From Bacteroidota bacterium (GTDB lineage: Bacteria > Bacteroidota > Bacteroidia > J057 > JAJTIE01), in the NCBI GenBank assembly GCA_021300195.1, contig JAJTIE010000003.1, positions 95,547 through 127,770 on the forward strand: 32,224 bases of DNA, given 5' to 3'. A program made the translations under genes and the position numbers. Positions within the stretch are counted from its first letter, which is position 1, and every line of letters begins with the position of its first letter. The notes beneath the pieces are model-generated. The model worked only from the letters and a program-made list of their open reading frames with translations, was not told the DNA's origin and did not search any database. Shown here in pieces: positions 17,977 to 31,763 of this stretch.

Positions 17977-19014
17977 CTACCAATTCAATGAGATCTCAGA
18001 CGTCAGTTCATAGTCATCCGCATGAGATGCTTTCAGGTTCAGCTCTGCTATCTCGCTTAGCAGACCGAACACCTGCTGCGGGTCCTCAGCTTCCACCAGG
18101 CGCGTGCGCCAGGGCTTGAAGTGCGCCAGGCCTTTGAAGTAGTTGGCATAGTGGCGGCGCATTTCATACAGGCCCACACGTTCCCCCTTCCAGCGCAGGC
18201 TTTGTTCCAGGTGGGTGCGCACCACGGCCACCCGCTCGGCCAGGCTGGGGGGGGGCAGTAGCTGGCCGGTGGCCAGGTAGTGCTTGATCTCGCGAAAAAT
18301 CCAGGGGTAGCCTATGGCCGCGCGGCCTATCATCAGCCCATCGGGCCCATACTGCTGCAGATACTGCTGTGCCTTCTGCGGGCTGTCTATGTCGCCATTG
18401 CCAAAAATGGGGATCTCTATATCGGGGTGCTGCTTCACCCGCTGGATCCAGCTCCAGTCGGCTGTGCCCTTATACATCTGGGCCCGTGTACGGGCGTGGA
18501 TACTCAAGGCCTGTATACCCGCATCCTGCAGGCGCAGGGCTACCTCTACAATACGTATGGAGTCTTGGTCCCAGCCCAGACGCGTCTTTACGGTTACAGG
18601 CAGCGCTGTGGAACGCACGATCTCGCGCGTCAGGGCCTCCATCTTCTCCGGCTCCCTCAGTATGGCGGCCCCAGCCCCCTTACACACCACCTTCTTCACC
18701 GGGCAGCCAAAGTTGATGTCAATTATGTCTGGCTGTGTTTTTTCTACAATGGCCGTGGCCTCTCGCATGCTTTCCAGCTCGGCACCAAATATCTGTATGC
18801 CCACGGGGCGCTCTTGCTCATAGATGTCCAGCTTCTGCAAGCTCTTGGCGGCATCGCGTATCAACCCCTCGCTACTGATAAACTCGGTGTACAACAAGTC
18901 TGCCCCCTGCTGCTTGCACACGGCACGAAAGGGTGGGTCGCTCACATCCTCCATGGGGGCCAGCAGCAGCGGCTGTGGCGGCAGCTGTACGGGGCCTATC
19001 TGTACCGGCTTCAT
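17977..19014 (-). CDS. dusB: tRNA-dihydrouridine synthase
   Basis: The 345-residue flavoenzyme reduces uridines in the tRNA D-loop. Its N-terminus PLLLAPMEDVSDPPFRAVCKQQGADLLYTEF is the FMN-barrel opening of the Dus family. INFGCPVKKVVCKGAGAAIL carries the conserved cysteine (GCPVKKVVCKGAGA), and PVTVKTRLGWD, LSIHARTRAQMYKG, IPIFGNGDI and LMIGRAAIGYPWIF complete the motifs. The length and motif set fit DusB. A perfect TATCTTTG box ends four bases before the ATG. It is downstream of, and on the same strand as, the DUF349 gene, with a 210-base gap. Confidence 0.94.
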   Translation of the reverse strand: MKPVQIGPVQLPPQPLLLAPMEDVSDPPFRAVCKQQGADLLYTEFISSEGLIRDAAKSLQKLDIYEQERPVGIQIFGAELESMREATAIVEKTQPDIIDINFGCPVKKVVCKGAGAAILREPEKMEALTREIVRSTALPVTVKTRLGWDQDSIRIVEVALRLQDAGIQALSIHARTRAQMYKGTADWSWIQRVKQHPDIEIPIFGNGDIDSPQKAQQYLQQYGPDGLMIGRAAIGYPWIFREIKHYLATGQLLPPPSLAERVAVVRTHLEQSLRWKGERVGLYEMRRHYANYFKGLAHFKPWRTRLVEAEDPQQVFGLLSEIAELNLKASHADDYELTSEISLNW

Positions 19015-23365: not shown

Positions 23366-25006
23366 ATGCCCACCAAAACTGCCAAGCACGCCCCCCCCCT
23401 ACCCGCCCACTATGCCGAGCTGCTGGAGCAGCTGCAGCACAAACAGGCCGAAGTAGCCCTGGGTGGAGGTGCCCAGGCGATAAAAAAGCACAAGGAAAAA
23501 GGGAAATGGACCGCCCGCGAGCGGATAGACTACCTGCTGGACGAGCCGGAAACGGCACTGGAGGTGGGCGAGCTGGCCGCAGACGGCATGTATGCCGAGG
23601 AAGGCGGATGCCCCTCGGCAGGTGTGGTGGTCAAGATCGGGCAGGTGCAGGGCCGCTGGGTGGTCATTGTGGCAAACGATGCCACCGTGAAAGCCGGAGC
23701 CTGGTTCCCCATGACAGGCAAGAAGAACCTGCGTGCCCAAGAGATAGCCATGGAAAACCGCCTGCCCATCCTGTATCTGGTAGACAGCGCGGGGGTGTAC
23801 CTGCCCATGCAGGACGAGATATTTCCGGACAAGGAGCACTTTGGCCGCATTTTCCGCAACAACGCACGCATGAGCAGCATGGGCATCCCCCAGCTGGCCG
23901 CCATCATGGGCCCGTGTGTGGCCGGAGGGGCCTATCTGCCTATCATGAGCGATGAAGCCCTGATTGTAGACGGAACAGGCTCCGTATTCCTGGCTGGTAG
24001 CTACCTGGTAAAGAGCGCCATAGGCGAAGAGGTAGACAACGAGACCCTGGGCGGGGCCACCACCCACACCGAGATAAGCGGGGTGGTAGACTACAAGGTA
24101 AAAGACGACCAGGAGGCCCTGGACACCCTGAAGAACCTGGTGGGCAAGATGGGCGCCACGCCCACAGCCGGCTTTAGCCGTACAGAAGCCCGGCCACCGG
24201 CGGTACCCGCAGAGCGGGTGTTCGACCTACTGCCCACAGACCGGGCCAAACCCTACGACACCCACGAGCTGCTACAGTGCCTGGTGGATGCCGACAGCTG
24301 GGAAGAATACAAGGCTGGCTATGGCCAGACCATCCTGACCGGCTATGCACGCATAGAGGGCTGGGCGGTAGGCATTGTAGCAAACCAGCGAAAAATTGTG
24401 AAAACGGCCAAAGGCGAGATGCAGTTTGGTGGCGTAATCTATAGCGACAGTGCCGATAAGGCCGCCCGCTTTGTGATGAACTGCAACCAGAAGCGCATTC
24501 CGCTGGTCTTTCTGCACGATGCCACCGGCTTTATGGTGGGTAGCCGCAGCGAGCACGGCGGAATCATCAAGGATGGGGCTAAAATGGTGAATGCCGTGGC
24601 CAATAGCGTGGTGCCCAAGTTCAGCATTGTCGTGGGCAATAGCTACGGGGCTGCCAACTATGCCATGTGCGGCAAGGCCTACGATCCCCGCCTGATCTAT
24701 GCCTGGCCTACGGCCCAGATAGCCGTAATGGGCGGTATGCAGGCCGCTAAAACCCTGCTGCAGATACAGGTAGCAGCCCTGAAAAAGAAAGGCGAAACCA
24801 TTACCCCGGAAACCGAGCAGGAACTGCTACAAAAGATAAGCCGCGCCTACGAGGCACAGACCAGCCCCTACTACGCCGCCGCCCGCCTGTGGGTAGACGG
24901 CATCATAGACCCACGCGCCACACGCCACCACCTGAGCGTAGGCATAGCCCTGGCCAACCAGAACCCGGATATACCACCCTACAGTACGGGTGTGATACAA
25001 ACCTAG
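23366..25006 (+). CDS. Acyl-CoA carboxylase, carboxyltransferase (beta) subunit
   Basis: The product is 546 residues from the ATG at 23366; ATGs at 23348 and 23327 are also in frame and cannot be excluded. It transfers the carboxyl group from carboxybiotin to an acyl-CoA. The N-half crotonase-like domain shows GKWTARERIDYLLD and IMGPCVAGGAYLPIMSDEALIV. The C-half shows FLHDATGFMVGSRSEHGGIIKDGAKMV and GNSYGAANYAMCGKAYDPRLIYAWP, then VMGGMQAAKTLLQ. The 'GAANYAMCGKAY' and 'AWPTAQIAVMGG' blocks resemble methylcrotonyl-CoA or geranyl-CoA carboxylase beta more than propionyl-CoA carboxylase. Substrate is therefore tentative. A TATTTTG element near 23330 may be its promoter. Confidence 0.92.
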   Translation: MPTKTAKHAPPLPAHYAELLEQLQHKQAEVALGGGAQAIKKHKEKGKWTARERIDYLLDEPETALEVGELAADGMYAEEGGCPSAGVVVKIGQVQGRWVVIVANDATVKAGAWFPMTGKKNLRAQEIAMENRLPILYLVDSAGVYLPMQDEIFPDKEHFGRIFRNNARMSSMGIPQLAAIMGPCVAGGAYLPIMSDEALIVDGTGSVFLAGSYLVKSAIGEEVDNETLGGATTHTEISGVVDYKVKDDQEALDTLKNLVGKMGATPTAGFSRTEARPPAVPAERVFDLLPTDRAKPYDTHELLQCLVDADSWEEYKAGYGQTILTGYARIEGWAVGIVANQRKIVKTAKGEMQFGGVIYSDSADKAARFVMNCNQKRIPLVFLHDATGFMVGSRSEHGGIIKDGAKMVNAVANSVVPKFSIVVGNSYGAANYAMCGKAYDPRLIYAWPTAQIAVMGGMQAAKTLLQIQVAALKKKGETITPETEQELLQKISRAYEAQTSPYYAAARLWVDGIIDPRATRHHLSVGIALANQNPDIPPYSTGVIQT

Positions 25007-25081
25007 CCCCTAGCCGGGCCCGGCAAGGGCACAACCCCCAAACAGCGGGCTGGATGGGGCCTGCACGGCAAGCCCGGGGCC

Positions 25082-25112
25082 TTGAAAACCCCCGGGTTTA
25101 TGCGCATATTTG
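25082..25112 (+). promoter_or_regulatory. Promoter for the RecB-like gene
   Basis: TTG (25082-25084) is followed after 20 bases by CATATTTG (25105-25112), one mismatch to TAnnTTTG. The GTG start at 25180 lies 67 bases downstream. The spacing matches Bacteroidota promoters. Confidence 0.5.
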
Positions 25113-25179
25113 TTCAGGATCGACACCCCCGGGCAGAGCGGCCTGCGCGCCTGCCGTACATCGTTCAAGATATACCCTC

Positions 25180-28100
25180 GTGCCCCTTACCCTCTACAAA
25201 GCCAGTGCCGGCAGTGGAAAAACCTACACCCTGGCACTCAGATGGCTACAGCTGGCCCTACAGTACCCAGATGCCTGGCAGCACATTCTCGCCATTACTT
25301 TTACCAAAAAAGCCACGGCCGAGATAAAGACCCGACTGCTACGTGTTGTTACCCTGGTGGCCTACCACCAGGAGCCCGACCGGCTGGCCCGCCTGCTAGA
25401 CAGACCTGCAGCCGAAGCCGAAAGCCTGAGGAAAGAGGCCGAAAGCCTGATACGCAAGCTGGAAATCCCGCCCCAGGCTCCCGGCGAAACACTGGCAGAC
25501 CCGGGTAGAAGGCTGCTGCATGCCCTGCTACACCGCTACCATCGGCTAGGCGTTAGCACCATCGATAGCCTGTTTCAGCGCATCGTGTACGCCTACGAGC
25601 GCGAGCTGGGCCTGCCGCTGGGGCGCGAGGTGCTGATAGAGCTGGACCTGCTGGGCGAGCAGCTGGCCGATGAACTGCTACGCCAGCTGCTGCCTGCTAC
25701 CCCCCTGCATGGCCGCCTACTCAGGTACGCCCTGCACCGCCTGGAGGAAAAAAAGAACTGGGAACTGCGCCACCAGCTGCTGGCACTCATCATGCGGCAG
25801 CTGGACAGCAAGGCGGTACCCTACCTGGAGCAGGTGCTGCCCCATGCCGCCCAGCTGCCCACCTATGTGCAGGCCAATGAGGCCCGCCTGGCCCAGCTAG
25901 AGGGCCAGCTGCAAGCCCTGGGCCAGCAGGGGCTGGCACGCTTGCAGGCGCATGGGCTGGAGGTTTCTCATTTCAGCTATGGCAAAAGTGGTGCCGCCCA
26001 GTGGTTTCACCGCCTCGCCCAGCAGCCCCTCCAGCTGGATGGGCATGAGGGCAGAGAACGGCTGAAGCAAGCCGTAGCGTGCGGAACGGCGGAAGGATTT
26101 TACGCCAAACAACAGACCAATGAGATCAGGCAGCGCATAGAGGCCGCCCTGGAAGATGGCCTGTACGACCTCTTTGCCCAGATGCTGGCGCTGCTGGAGG
26201 GGCACGTGCTGCGGGAATACCTCACCCGAAAGCACCTGCAGAAAGAGCTGTATGAGCTACAGCTACAGGTCGATATTGCCGAGTTTTGGAAAGCCTATAA
26301 AGCGCAAGCAGGCATCCAGCTGCTGGGCGATGCCGAACAGCAGATAGCCCGCATCCACGCCGAATCGGACCTGCCTATCCTGTACGAACGCCTGGGCGAC
26401 CGCTACCGGCATATCCTGCTCGACGAGTTTCAGGATACCAGTGAGCAGCAGTGGGCCAACCTGCTGCCCCTGGCCGATGAGGCGCTGGGCAACCATGGCG
26501 TGGTGGTGGTGGTGGGCGATGTGAAGCAGAGCATCTACCGCTTCCGGGGCGGAGCCCCCCAGCTGCTGCAGCAGCAGCTGGGCCAAGACCTAGTGGCCTA
26601 TGCGCCACAAACGATCTCCCTGAATGACAACTACCGCAGCGCCCGTGCCATCGTGCAGGTAAACAATGCACTCTGTAGGCACATACCCCAGTGTACCTAC
26701 AGCAAGGCTGCTCCGGCTATCACCCAGCAGCTCTTGTCGGCCATCTATGGCAACGACGCAGCCCAAACGGCAAAGCTGGACCGAGCGGGCTATGTACACT
26801 GGAAGTTTTATCCCCTAAAGGAGGGAGAAAAGCAGGATAAAAAAGAAGCGAAAGGCGAGCGGAAGGAACAGATAGAGGCCGACTTTTTGAAACAGATACA
26901 GGCCCTGCTGGCAGCGGGCTGGCGGGGTAGCGACCTGCTGATTCTGGTAAGCAAGAACAAGGAGGCCAGCGCGGTGGTAGAGCTGCTGCACACGGCGGGC
27001 ATACCGGTTTTTACCCCCGATGCCCTGCTGCTACAGCATGGGGCACAGGTGCGCCTGCTGCATGCGCTGCTAGCCTACACCCACACCCCCGCAGCCGTGC
27101 ACCTGGCCGAGGCGCTGACTGCCCAGGCTGCCCTGCTGAGCCAGGCACCCGATCCGGCCCTGCTGGCCGCCCCAGTGGCAGCGCAACTGGTGGGCCTATC
27201 GCCAGGGCTGCCTGCGCTCCTGGCAGCCAACCTGCCCCCCTACACCCTGGCCATGCGGCTCTGTGCCCTGTTCGAAACCCTGGACCCCCAGCAGGATGCC
27301 TACCTGCAGCAGTATCTGCAGCTGCTGCACAGCCAACTGGGGCTACACGGGCAGCTAGCCCACTTTCTGCACTACTACGATACCGAAGGCAAGCACAAGA
27401 ACAAGCTGAACCTGCCCGCCAGGCCAGAGGCCGTACAGGTGCTTACCATCCACAAGGCGAAGGGACTAGAGGCACCCGTGGTGCTGCTACCCTACGCAAA
27501 CTGGGACTTCTTCGATAAATTGAGCAGCCAATCCAGCTGGGTGTCTCTTCCGCCCTCTTACGGTATTCCCTTCGCTATACCGGTGGAAGCCCAAACGAAG
27601 ATAGAGCATACCGACCTGGCCGCGGCCTACGAAGAGGAAACCCTGGCTACGCTGCTAGACCAGCTGAACAAGCTGTATGTAGCCACTACACGCGCCGGCC
27701 AGCGCCTGTACGCATGGATAGAACTGCCCCAAGCAGCCGAAAAGAAAGGGAAGAAACAAAAAGAGCAGGAGCAAGCGAAAGAGCAAACTATATCCTCCAG
27801 CGGGGCACTGCTAGACCTGCTGAGCCGCCAGGAGCCCCTGGCGCAGGGCCGCAGCGAGCATGAGTTTGTGTGGGGCACTGCCGAGGCACCGCAGCGGGCA
27901 GAGGCACCCGGGGTGCCCGAGCACCCACAGCCCTACCCCATAGCCGGCAAGCAGCTGATGCCCCTACAGCAACCAACAGCAGGGGCAAACACAGAAGCCC
28001 GGCAACTGGGCGATGACCTGCACGCCGAGCTGGCCCGCCTGGCAAGCCTGCCCACCAGTGCCGTATCTGCGCCCGCCCGGGCGCTGTGGGCGCAGCTGTG

Positions 28101-28392
28101 GCAGCACCCAGCCCTGCAGCCCTACACCAGCTGGCGGCGGCTACCCGAGCAATGCCTGGGCTACCAGGGCCAGCTGCTACGGCCCGACCTGCTGTGCCAA
28201 CAGGGTACACAGCTGGTGCTTATCGACTATAAGAGCGGGCAGCCCGATGCCGCGCACAGCCTACAGGTAGCCACCTACCGGGCTGCCCTACAGGCAGGTG
28301 GCCGGCAGGTAGTGGATGCTTTTCTGGTATACCTGGATGTGGGGCAGGCTAGGGTAACAGCGGTGCAGGCGGTGCCTGCTGCCCAGGGCTAG
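25180..28392 (+). CDS. UvrD/RecB-like helicase-nuclease
   Basis: The 1070-residue protein is taken from a GTG at 25180, because homologous proteins begin a few residues before Walker A (LYKASAGSGKTYTLALRW) and the longer ORF overlaps the carboxylase gene. All UvrD-type motifs are present: Ia ITFTKKATAEIKTRLL, II LLDEFQDT (Asp415-Glu416), III VVGDVKQSIYRFRGG, IV LNDNYRS, V VLTIHKAKGLEAPVV, and VI NKLYVATTRA. The C-terminus is a RecB-type PD-(D/E)xK nuclease with LLRPDLL, LVLIDYKSG (Asp1016, Lys1018) and the QVATYRAAL helix. It probably resects double-strand breaks in an AddAB/RecBCD-like manner. A partner AddB/RecC gene is not in the window. Its 3' end overlaps the convergent repeat gene by 44 bases. 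Confidence 0.92.
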   Translation: MPLTLYKASAGSGKTYTLALRWLQLALQYPDAWQHILAITFTKKATAEIKTRLLRVVTLVAYHQEPDRLARLLDRPAAEAESLRKEAESLIRKLEIPPQAPGETLADPGRRLLHALLHRYHRLGVSTIDSLFQRIVYAYERELGLPLGREVLIELDLLGEQLADELLRQLLPATPLHGRLLRYALHRLEEKKNWELRHQLLALIMRQLDSKAVPYLEQVLPHAAQLPTYVQANEARLAQLEGQLQALGQQGLARLQAHGLEVSHFSYGKSGAAQWFHRLAQQPLQLDGHEGRERLKQAVACGTAEGFYAKQQTNEIRQRIEAALEDGLYDLFAQMLALLEGHVLREYLTRKHLQKELYELQLQVDIAEFWKAYKAQAGIQLLGDAEQQIARIHAESDLPILYERLGDRYRHILLDEFQDTSEQQWANLLPLADEALGNHGVVVVVGDVKQSIYRFRGGAPQLLQQQLGQDLVAYAPQTISLNDNYRSARAIVQVNNALCRHIPQCTYSKAAPAITQQLLSAIYGNDAAQTAKLDRAGYVHWKFYPLKEGEKQDKKEAKGERKEQIEADFLKQIQALLAAGWRGSDLLILVSKNKEASAVVELLHTAGIPVFTPDALLLQHGAQVRLLHALLAYTHTPAAVHLAEALTAQAALLSQAPDPALLAAPVAAQLVGLSPGLPALLAANLPPYTLAMRLCALFETLDPQQDAYLQQYLQLLHSQLGLHGQLAHFLHYYDTEGKHKNKLNLPARPEAVQVLTIHKAKGLEAPVVLLPYANWDFFDKLSSQSSWVSLPPSYGIPFAIPVEAQTKIEHTDLAAAYEEETLATLLDQLNKLYVATTRAGQRLYAWIELPQAAEKKGKKQKEQEQAKEQTISSSGALLDLLSRQEPLAQGRSEHEFVWGTAEAPQRAEAPGVPEHPQPYPIAGKQLMPLQQPTAGANTEARQLGDDLHAELARLASLPTSAVSAPARALWAQLWQHPALQPYTSWRRLPEQCLGYQGQLLRPDLLCQQGTQLVLIDYKSGQPDAAHSLQVATYRAALQAGGRQVVDAFLVYLDVGQARVTAVQAVPAAQG

Positions 28393-29794
28393 CCGGCGCG
28401 CCCACAGGCCTTCCTCCCTTATTCTGTGGCTGCAGGTGCGGGGCCGTGCGGATGCCATAGGGGGCGGTTACCCCACCATAGCGGCGGTACTGGCAGCGGG
28501 CTATGTGGCTGGGCAGGTTAGGCCGCTCCTCGGGGTACATGCGTATCAGTTGCTCCGTCATCCCTTTCTGGATGAAATGCTCAATCATCAGATCCTTGGT
28601 TTCGGCCTCACTCAGCAGCACCCGCTTAAATGTAACCTCGCCCTGCCGGTTGCGCCGCATGGCGGGGTCTACCGGCACAATCACGATGAGATTTCGCACC
28701 GCTGCCCGCTTCAGCTTTACAATGCGTTTCTTGCTGCTGTCGGCATCTGCCCAGCGTACCATGCGCTTTATGCGCTTGTCTATCACATAGTCTGCTATCA
28801 TTACGGTTCCGTAGTCTTCGGTCTTTACCATCTGCCCGGCCGACAGGGAGGAGACTACGTTGCTCAGCTTACAGTTCTTCTTGTGGTTGCGCATCAGCAT
28901 CTGCATCTGGTAGGCAGCGCGCTCCAGGTTGGTCGTGCGTTTCATACTGGGGTCGCAGGGCACACGGTACTTGTGCAGCGGGGTGTGCTTTATCTTCAGG
29001 TGGCCACAGGTAGTGCCATCCAGGCTGCGGTGCCGTATCCGCAGCTGGCGGCAGGCGGTGCCATCCAGGCTCTGGTGGCGTATACGCAGGCGGCTGCACG
29101 CAGTGCCATCCAGGCTGCGGTGCTGTATCCGCAGACGTCGGCAGGCGGTGCCATCCAGGCTCTGATGTCGTATGCGCAGGTGGCCACAGGTAGTACCATC
29201 CAGGCTGCGGTGCTGTATCCGCATACGTCGGCAGGCGGTGCCGTCCAGGCTCTGATGGCGTATACGCAGGCGGCTGCACGTAGTGCCATCCACCATACGG
29301 TGCTGTATCCGCAGCTGGCGGCAGGCGGTGCCGTCCAGACCCTGGTGGCGCACAGCCCGGCGAAGGCAGGCGGCACCATCCACCGTGCGGTGCTGTATCC
29401 GCAGCCGGCGGCCCGTGTAGCCCATGGCAGCCTTGCTGGGCCACGGCCTGCGCTTTTTTGCCCACAGCTCGCCGCCATCCCGTAGGCTGTGCCGGGTGCG
29501 CGGGGTGTATGGCTTTGCATACAGCCCACCGGGGCGATGCCTTGGGCGGCGGGGTATCCGGGAAGCTGGCGGGCTGTCCCCTTTCCGCGGGGTGGCTTCG
29601 TCGGATGAGCCCCGGAGGTAGCCACCTGCGAGCAGTCGCATTCTTTGGGGAGGGCGATAAGCGGTGCGGGTGGCGGCTGGGGGGTAGGCCTGTGCTACAG
29701 CGAGCGAGCACTCCTGGGCCGCAGACTGACAGGCTGCCGCCTGCAGCAGAGATCCCAATGCCACGAGGGCCCAGAATGTGCGCACTCCTTGCAT
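28349..29794 (-). CDS. Exported basic protein with 15-residue Cys/His tandem repeats, unrecognised family
   Basis: The 481-residue product starts MQGVRTFWALVALGSLLQAA, a signal peptide; the Cys at residue 22 after QAAA gives an imperfect lipobox. Residues 40-125 are Arg/Pro-rich. Residues 129-263 are nine 15-residue repeats, and a tenth decays by about 275; the pattern is LRI-x-H-x-SLDGT-x-C, with Cys at 143 then every 15 residues to 263 and His at 135 then every 15 to 270. I, L/V and C also recur every five residues. The C-terminal 200 residues are basic, with VPCDPSMKR and VPVDPAMRR as a possible second internal repeat, and end in a Pro-rich tail. Several other frames are open across the repeats, but only this one spans the gene and joins a signal peptide to a TAGTTTTG promoter box 10 bases upstream. 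Function unknown; I recognise no known domain. Confidence 0.72.
   Translation of the reverse strand: MQGVRTFWALVALGSLLQAAACQSAAQECSLAVAQAYPPAATRTAYRPPQRMRLLAGGYLRGSSDEATPRKGDSPPASRIPRRPRHRPGGLYAKPYTPRTRHSLRDGGELWAKKRRPWPSKAAMGYTGRRLRIQHRTVDGAACLRRAVRHQGLDGTACRQLRIQHRMVDGTTCSRLRIRHQSLDGTACRRMRIQHRSLDGTTCGHLRIRHQSLDGTACRRLRIQHRSLDGTACSRLRIRHQSLDGTACRQLRIRHRSLDGTTCGHLKIKHTPLHKYRVPCDPSMKRTTNLERAAYQMQMLMRNHKKNCKLSNVVSSLSAGQMVKTEDYGTVMIADYVIDKRIKRMVRWADADSSKKRIVKLKRAAVRNLIVIVPVDPAMRRNRQGEVTFKRVLLSEAETKDLMIEHFIQKGMTEQLIRMYPEERPNLPSHIARCQYRRYGGVTAPYGIRTAPHLQPQNKGGRPVGAPASPGQQAPPAPLLP
28990..29419 (-). repeat. Nine tandem 45-bp repeats plus a degenerate tenth
   Basis: Unit boundaries fall every 45 bases, at 29015, 29060, 29105, 29150, 29195, 29240, 29285, 29330 and 29375. 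Alternate units are more alike than neighbours, giving a 90-bp higher-order period. The units at 29330 and 29375 are the most divergent, and 28990-29014 preserves part of a tenth. The period is a multiple of three, so copy-number change would keep the reading frame. Confidence 0.93.
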
Positions 29795-29954: not shown

Positions 29955-31763
29955 CTAAAACCGGATGCCAATCACCACGACGTCATCCGTCTGCTCCATA
30001 TCCCCGCGCCAGTGGCGCAGCTCAGCATCCAGCAGCAGCCGCTGGTACTCCATATCCTTATCGTGTATCTCCTGCAGGAAGGTCTGAAATCGCTTGCCCT
30101 GAAATCGCTTGTTGATCTCCTCGCCTATCTGGTCCGGATAACCATCGCTGTAGATGTACACCGTGTCTCCGGCTTCCATCTCAAGGGTATGGGTGGTGTA
30201 GGACGCTACCTCTTCGATCTGGTAGCCGCCTATGCCCTGTTTATCGCCCTTTATCTCCTCTATCTCGCCGTTTGCGCGCACAATCAGCAGGGGGCGGTTG
30301 GCACCGGCATATTGTAGCTTGCCGCGCTTGGTATCTACCTGCAGCAGGGCAATATCCAGCCCATCCTGGTTCTTTCTGCGTCCGGCCTCAGTGCTCTCCG
30401 TCTCCTGCTGTAGGGCTACACGCACCCGCAGGTTTAGGTGGTACAGGATCTCATCGGGCTTGAAGATGCCCTCCAGCTCTACAATCTGCCGCAGCAGGGT
30501 GTTGGCCATGATGGTCATAAATGCCCCGGGTATACCGTGGCCGGTGCAGTCTGCCGCAGCAATGATGGCCTTGCTGAGCCTGCGGCTAAACCAGTAGAAG
30601 TCGCCGGATACAATGTCCTTGGGCTTATAGTATACCAAGCTCTGGGGGAAAGTCTTTTTAATACCCTCCAAGCTGGGCAAAAAAGCATCCTGTATGCGCC
30701 GTGCGTAGTTTATACTGGAGATGATGTCATCATTTTTCTGGCGAATCAACTCGTGGCTGCGCTCTATCTCCTCCTTCTGTGCCTTTACTTCGCGGGTACG
30801 CTCCTCCACCTTAGCCTCCATGTAGGAGTAGAGTTGTGCATTCTGTATGGCTATAGCGGCCGGGGCAGTAAGCAGGCGGAGTAGTTCCAAGCTTTCGTTA
30901 CTAAAGGCGTGGGTCTTCTCGCTGTTTTCCAGGTAGAGGATGCCATAGAGCTTGCCCTGATAAATCAGCGGCGTGCAGAGTATGCTTCGGCAGAGATTTT
31001 TTCGTATGTAGGGATGACTGAGGAAGTTACCTTCCTTCAAAGCATCGTGCAGGATAATGTTCTCGCGCGTGCGCACAACATATTCTACCACCGCAGGGCA
31101 TACCGGGCTGAAGTCCGATATCTCCGCCCGCCCGGTTTGGGTAGCATGTTCGGTGGGGGTGCCGCTTGCCTCTATGAATATTCGTCCATCTGCGTCCTCC
31201 ATCAGGATATAACCCTTGCGGGCATCGGCATTTTCTACCACCAGGCGCATGAGCTTGTGTAGCAGCTTGTGCAGCTGTATCTCTCCTGTGATGCTCATAC
31301 TGGCCCGGTGGAGCTCGGTTAGGATCCGGGCTTTTTGGGTTACCTCCTGCTGCTGGAGATAGAAGCGACTAGCCTCACGCAGGCCGAGCCCAAAAGTGAT
31401 TTCGTCCAGCGGACGGTAGAAGATACGAAAGATCTTGGCAGCCTCCACCTCGTCTGCATCCAGGTTCTCGGGCCCGTCAGTTATCAGGATGCGTAGCCCA
31501 TGCGGCCATTTTTCATAAGCCCGCCGCAAGTGGCGGACAGCCAACTGGTCGTTCCCGTCGCTGGACACAATGGTCATGGCAATTTCCACCCCCTCCAGCA
31601 CCATTCGGTCCAGCCGGCGCAGCAGGTCGTCTGCATCTGCCGCCACTATCAGTTCATAGGCCTGCACTACGCCACCAAATAGGCCCCGCACCCGGCCCAG
31701 GCTGACACGGTCTGGCTCTACCAGCAGTATTACTGGCTTTATGATATCCGGATGATCCTCCAA
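29955..31763 (-). CDS. REC-GAF-SpoIIE (PP2C-type) phosphatase
   Basis: The 602-residue product begins at a TTG (31763): an in-frame stop lies two codons upstream and the next ATG would remove the first strands of the REC domain. Residues 9-120 look like a receiver domain, with PVILLVEPD, ILITD and FYRPLD, where Arg117 replaces the usual lysine; Asp69 may be the acceptor but the surroundings are atypical. A GAF domain spans about 145-310 and a coiled coil about 312-365. The C-terminal SpoIIE/PP2C domain keeps its metal ligands: SGDFYWF (Asp388), AADCTGHGIPGAF (Asp405), YSDGYPDQ (Asp540) and QTDDVVVIG (Asp593-594). It should dephosphorylate Ser/Thr on a partner such as an anti-sigma antagonist, with the GAF domain sensing a signal. 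No kinase gene is adjacent. Confidence 0.9.
   Translation of the reverse strand: MEDHPDIIKPVILLVEPDRVSLGRVRGLFGGVVQAYELIVAADADDLLRRLDRMVLEGVEIAMTIVSSDGNDQLAVRHLRRAYEKWPHGLRILITDGPENLDADEVEAAKIFRIFYRPLDEITFGLGLREASRFYLQQQEVTQKARILTELHRASMSITGEIQLHKLLHKLMRLVVENADARKGYILMEDADGRIFIEASGTPTEHATQTGRAEISDFSPVCPAVVEYVVRTRENIILHDALKEGNFLSHPYIRKNLCRSILCTPLIYQGKLYGILYLENSEKTHAFSNESLELLRLLTAPAAIAIQNAQLYSYMEAKVEERTREVKAQKEEIERSHELIRQKNDDIISSINYARRIQDAFLPSLEGIKKTFPQSLVYYKPKDIVSGDFYWFSRRLSKAIIAAADCTGHGIPGAFMTIMANTLLRQIVELEGIFKPDEILYHLNLRVRVALQQETESTEAGRRKNQDGLDIALLQVDTKRGKLQYAGANRPLLIVRANGEIEEIKGDKQGIGGYQIEEVASYTTHTLEMEAGDTVYIYSDGYPDQIGEEINKRFQGKRFQTFLQEIHDKDMEYQRLLLDAELRHWRGDMEQTDDVVVIGIRF

Follow-up and report, generated by a model that had tools for sequence, protein, structure and literature searches.

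We propose that the 45-bp repeat array described here grew by in-frame copying of 90-bp blocks of two units, that its 15-residue motif is held by purifying selection, and that the gene belongs to a family of probably exported, cationic scaffold or adhesin proteins; to this explanation as a whole we assign a probability of roughly 0.55. The array lies in a 32,224-nucleotide stretch of a Bacteroidota genome (the window). As a form of variation it is of an ordinary, already known type, the intragenic tandem repeat, and the main interest lies in the gene that carries it, a single-copy gene, present in every sampled member of two orders, that combines fast-changing repeats with a conserved C-terminal domain. 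The features of the locus are listed below with the evidence for each.

28349-29794, minus strand: 481-residue open reading frame containing the array, with a hydrophobic leader, the repeats and a conserved C-terminal domain (homologues, purifying selection).
29714-29794, minus strand: N-terminal hydrophobic leader, a putative Sec signal peptide, about residues 1-27 (by eye).
29015-29419, minus strand: array of nine units of 45 bp, or 15 residues, each, with a 90-bp higher-order period (TRF, identity matrix).
28997-29014, minus strand: partial unit, a copy of 29177-29194 at the left edge of the 180-bp period (18 nt identical).
28454-28993, minus strand: conserved C-terminal domain, KYRVPCDP ... 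CKL ... MYPEE (alignments, predicted model).

TRF reported a period of 45 bp at 29013-29412 (8.9 copies, 67% matches), one of 90 bp at 29012-29412 (4.5 copies, 84% matches) and one of 180 bp at 28997-29338 (1.9 copies, 89% matches). Positional identity along the array was 249/371 at lag 45, 272/326 at lag 90, 193/281 at lag 135 and 195/236 at lag 180, and a comparison of 180-bp blocks gave 154 identical positions of 180. In the identity matrix of the nine units, pairs of the same parity (n = 16) share a mean of 36.2 of 45 nucleotides, as against 30.0 for pairs of opposite parity (n = 20). The grouping into odd and even units ranks first among the 126 possible 5:4 splits, and identity at lag 2 exceeds that at lag 1 by 7.5 of 45 (permutation p = 0.00055). 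The sequence-only reading had placed a 45-bp array with a 90-bp higher-order period at 29015-29419 and had claimed that alternate units are closer than adjacent ones; TRF and the matrix bear out both statements. The two pairs that it cited are identical at 42 of 45 positions (29060 and 29240, lag 4) and at 43 of 45 (29105 and 29195, lag 2), and the matrix, which it had named as its own check, shows even/odd clustering and not the lack of such structure that was to speak against it. The last two units (29330 and 29375) are degenerate, and diverged segments extend the array on either side at the protein level; when these flanks are added (15 segments, protein level, unit lengths of 14-18 residues allowed), the lag-2 excess is non-significant (p = 0.14). 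The longest exact repeat within 28701-29700 measures 28 bp, and a short-read assembly could therefore still resolve the array in the window. TRF also detected a 17-bp tandem repeat elsewhere in the window (18104-18140, 2.1 copies).

The parity pattern extends to synonymous sites. Where two units carry the same residue, the codons are identical at a frequency of 0.793 in same-parity pairs and 0.557 in opposite-parity pairs, a measure that also puts the odd/even split at rank 1 of 126, and pS is 0.289 within parity classes compared with 0.556 between them. Parity at synonymous sites therefore points to two old unit types that were copied together, and not to protein-level selection alone. Expansion by two-unit blocks, as the sequence-only reading had suggested, is thus supported by synonymous sites that follow parity and by relatives that show blocks of the same kind. 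Two diverged unit types, A and B, were copied jointly as 90-bp AB blocks, giving rise to the even/odd pattern, and purifying selection kept the 15-residue motif. The copying presumably took place in frame, through slippage or unequal recombination among the units. A 180-bp ABAB block was probably copied once, the identity of the 180-bp blocks suggesting a doubling of four units.

An explanation by selection only, in which adjacent units are oriented in opposite directions in the fold and no blocks were copied, draws on the protein-level alternation of certain distant relatives whose units have diverged strongly, among them several f50 members in which units of 15 and of 17-18 residues alternate beside the C-terminal domain. 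We regard it as unlikely, as the parity of the window is also present at synonymous sites, where selection on residues is not expected to produce it. As the sole cause of parity in the window, selection is contradicted by these sites; it may still act as an additional force.

Block copying was followed into the relatives by determining, for each of 21 genes, the lag at which 75 nt of DNA best match the gene itself. A lag of two units was the commonest outcome, with 9 of the 21 genes (90 nt for the window gene, 93-102 nt for the rest), and it ties with another lag in three more (L027, L035 and G004); these counts are not independent, the f50 genes being mutually related and several best matches weak. 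The best lag is a single unit in L025, L029, L031 and L009, the last with tandem single-unit copies at lag 48, and is longer in L026, L036, L002 (162), L011 (141) and L012. Between two congeners of f46, in another order, there are gaps of 33 and 60 nt, which total 93 nt or one two-unit block (3 against 4 copies); the copy number of G098 is unsure, 131 Ns standing beside the repeats in its fetched locus. One 16-residue unit is present in 4 copies in G005 and 2 in G004, a difference to which an assembly doubt applies. The G004 homologue is split across two contig ends (L010 and L069) within a near-identical 45-bp array, and its copy number is therefore unsure, which calls for caution with draft genomes. 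Its 5' part (L069:328-1590) contains a near-identical 90-bp duplication of two units, matching at 74 of 75 positions at lag 90, that was not seen by eye in the congener G005.

A whole-array test at the protein level, restricted to unit lengths of 14-18 residues and leaving out the truncated L010 (4 units), gave a lag-2 over lag-1 excess with p < 0.05 (uncorrected) in 6 of 20 proteins and full parity in 2 of 20. By the same test no parity signal was found in L009 (f4), L011 (f6) or L002, from the second f1 genus. Parity is not family-wide, because few proteins reach significance and these three show none. A tentative and rather doubtful idea is that the proteins represent a new class of exported cationic Cys/His repeat filament with the AB pair as its real building block; arrays in separate orders would then have grown repeatedly by complete AB pairs, AB being the block that functions. 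Since two-unit blocks recur in separate lineages, they offer a natural way to test which of the two, recombination length or protein structure, determines block size.

The repeat units read TACRRLRIQHRSLDG and similar, with the very basic consensus LDGTxCxxLRIxHxS. In all 21 proteins the repeat region has a pI of 9.7-12.0 and a net charge of +11.7 to +20.8 per 100 residues, and in nearly all it is self-similar at lags of 15-18 or 30-34 residues; the similarity is weak in L029 and absent from L012, whose basic region lacks cysteine and shows little repeat structure. The most hydrophobic 12-residue stretch falls within the first 60 residues in 19 of the 21 proteins, start methionines having been chosen heuristically (for L030 the stop-to-stop frame was used, and the start of L032 is probably too late). 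The exceptions are the truncated L010 and the window protein, in which the leader reaches a hydrophobic maximum of 1.92 over the first 60 residues and another stretch of the same protein reaches 1.97. Since the leader of the window protein is thus surpassed in hydrophobicity, export of this protein is less sure than that of most relatives. A CxGxxC motif directly follows the leader in 17 of the 21 proteins (L024-L036, L040, L042, L009 and L011) and is absent from the window protein, L002, L012 and the truncated L010. Spacings from cysteine to histidine of the kind found in the repeats number nine in the window protein, 10 in L009 and 8 in L011.

The leader, the charge and the cysteine spacing suggest, less firmly than the block structure of the array, an exported cationic scaffold or adhesin. 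The protein might be exported by Sec and act, in the periplasm or on the cell surface, as an extended cationic scaffold or adhesin, with basic repeats that could bind polyanions, regularly spaced cysteines that could form disulfides and a C-terminal domain that perhaps serves as a folded anchor. The regular cysteines and histidines, roughly one cysteine and one histidine in each unit of the window array, might instead bind metal or haem, array length setting the capacity. The recurrence of Cys-to-His spacings in the window protein, L009 and L011 and the CxGxxC motif that most members (17 of 21) carry behind the leader are consistent with such a role, but f46 proteins keep the cysteines and have few histidines (4 and 1), L012 lacks such spacing, and neither the window protein nor its family relative L002 has CxGxxC. 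Pfam gave no convincing match to a known metal-binding family, and we consider this role improbable. A role as cargo of the type IX secretion system (T9SS) seems highly doubtful. GldL, a gliding/T9SS marker, was found in 24 of the 24 genomes examined, carriers and non-carriers of the array gene together, so the system is probably present; yet for the same reason GldL does not tell carriers from non-carriers and is uninformative as a discriminating partner. NCBIfam includes T9SS sorting-domain models, and neither the window protein nor the 21 members had an NCBIfam match.

Structure prediction yielded a full-length model with a mean pLDDT of 56. The model is confident for the C-terminal domain and for the leader, a predicted helix over residues 2-35 whose first part has high pLDDT, and not for residues 37-270. 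The repeats were modelled with a pLDDT of about 30-36, which may reflect either disorder or poor alignment of the repeats. Modelled alone, the C-terminal domain reached a pLDDT of 80 and a pTM of 0.73, with a predicted helix, a long beta-hairpin and further strands, and three helices. Foldseek against the PDB returned no significant match (best E 0.083 with the full model, 0.078 with the domain alone), and a viral structure library gave no significant fold match (best E 0.043). The beta part of the domain bears a weak likeness to the SH3-like barrels of CarD, Tudor and CAP-Gly, which is within noise: the best VIA Z scores for CarD/Tudor/SH3-like folds were 4.1 (full model) and 2.8 (domain alone), tied with unrelated proteins and below the trusted level, and there was no sequence match.

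The window protein matched no Pfam or NCBIfam family at E <= 1. With the 21 members, Pfam gave 5 stray matches, each in one member (best E 0.013), and NCBIfam gave none at E <= 0.1. A PDB sequence search with the family profile returned nothing at E <= 1, phmmer with the window protein against the PDB gave one match (E 0.9), and PHROGs gave one (E 0.55). A text search of the open-access literature found nothing on the family, which seems to be undescribed in the libraries searched.

In its own genome the array gene is the only match, which leaves no candidate paralogue there, and the carriers among the genomes searched have a single such gene each. Sampling one genome per species, we found matches in 2 of 2 genomes of its own family and, with the C-terminal part, in 6 of 22 of its own order (own genome included in both); the nearest relative found belongs to another genus. 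Profile searches detected the family in 13/13 genomes of the order of G164, 3/3 of the order of G059, 22/395 of the class sample and 1/395 of the phylum sample, the last being the own genome. A wider search of contigs with the single window protein found no relative, and with alignment A2 it found four carriers, Bacteroidetes bacterium ACE_BAC9 and three uncultured Bacteroidia. Judged by these matches, the family occurs in a few lineages of the class Bacteroidia. No shared neighbour genes were seen by eye among the open reading frames of 11 loci.

Two known systems invite comparison. Intragenic tandem repeats of variable copy number have been described in Legionella pneumophila (PMC2639597) and, as far as the portion of that report used here goes, they share with the window the location of in-frame tandem repeats in coding sequence and, with the array family, copy numbers that differ between related genomes (here congeners of different species); in our case, however, units are copied two at a time and the protein belongs to a different family. 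The palindromic amphipathic repeat coding elements, or PARCELs, consist of 25-residue units encoded by DNA with dyad symmetry (PMC2996958). On the evidence of the part of that source consulted, they resemble the array family in having variable-number repeats in proteins without an assigned function, many of them membrane-targeted. Their unit length is not found here, the window having units of 15 residues and its relatives units of about 15-18, and the array family differs further from what that part describes in having one gene per genome searched and a conserved C-terminal domain.

The reading frame of the array was assessed by comparing its units in six frames. The gene frame gave a pN/pS of 0.47 with zero stops; one plus-strand frame gave 0.56 but has stops in 2 of 8 units, and the remaining four gave 1.28-1.97. 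The minus-strand gene frame alone combines a lack of stops with purifying selection. Among units 1-7, 4 of the 15 columns vary at the first codon position, 4 at the second and 12 at the third. From the frame-wise pN/pS and this codon-position pattern it follows that the repeats are read from the minus strand and kept by protein-level selection. Length changes had been expected to stay in frame on the ground that 45 is divisible by three, as a possible source of variation between strains, and the array does lie within a single open frame on which purifying selection acts. With tandem units in such a frame and a unit length that is a multiple of three, it is an intragenic coding tandem repeat. 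A non-coding or regulatory minisatellite, or a reading on the plus strand, can be dismissed almost entirely: a unit length that is a multiple of three leaves several frames open, and a plus-strand frame of 349 residues (28436-29485) spans the array, but among frames without stops a pN/pS below 1 is seen solely in that of the minus-strand gene (1.97 in the stop-free plus frame), and the minus-strand protein has homologues in many genomes.

Downstream, the array gene converges with an open reading frame for a UvrD-like helicase on the plus strand (24889-28392), and the 3' ends of the two overlap by 44 bp (28349-28392). The gene upstream of the array gene, also on the minus strand (29955-31763), encodes GAF and SpoIIE phosphatase domains.
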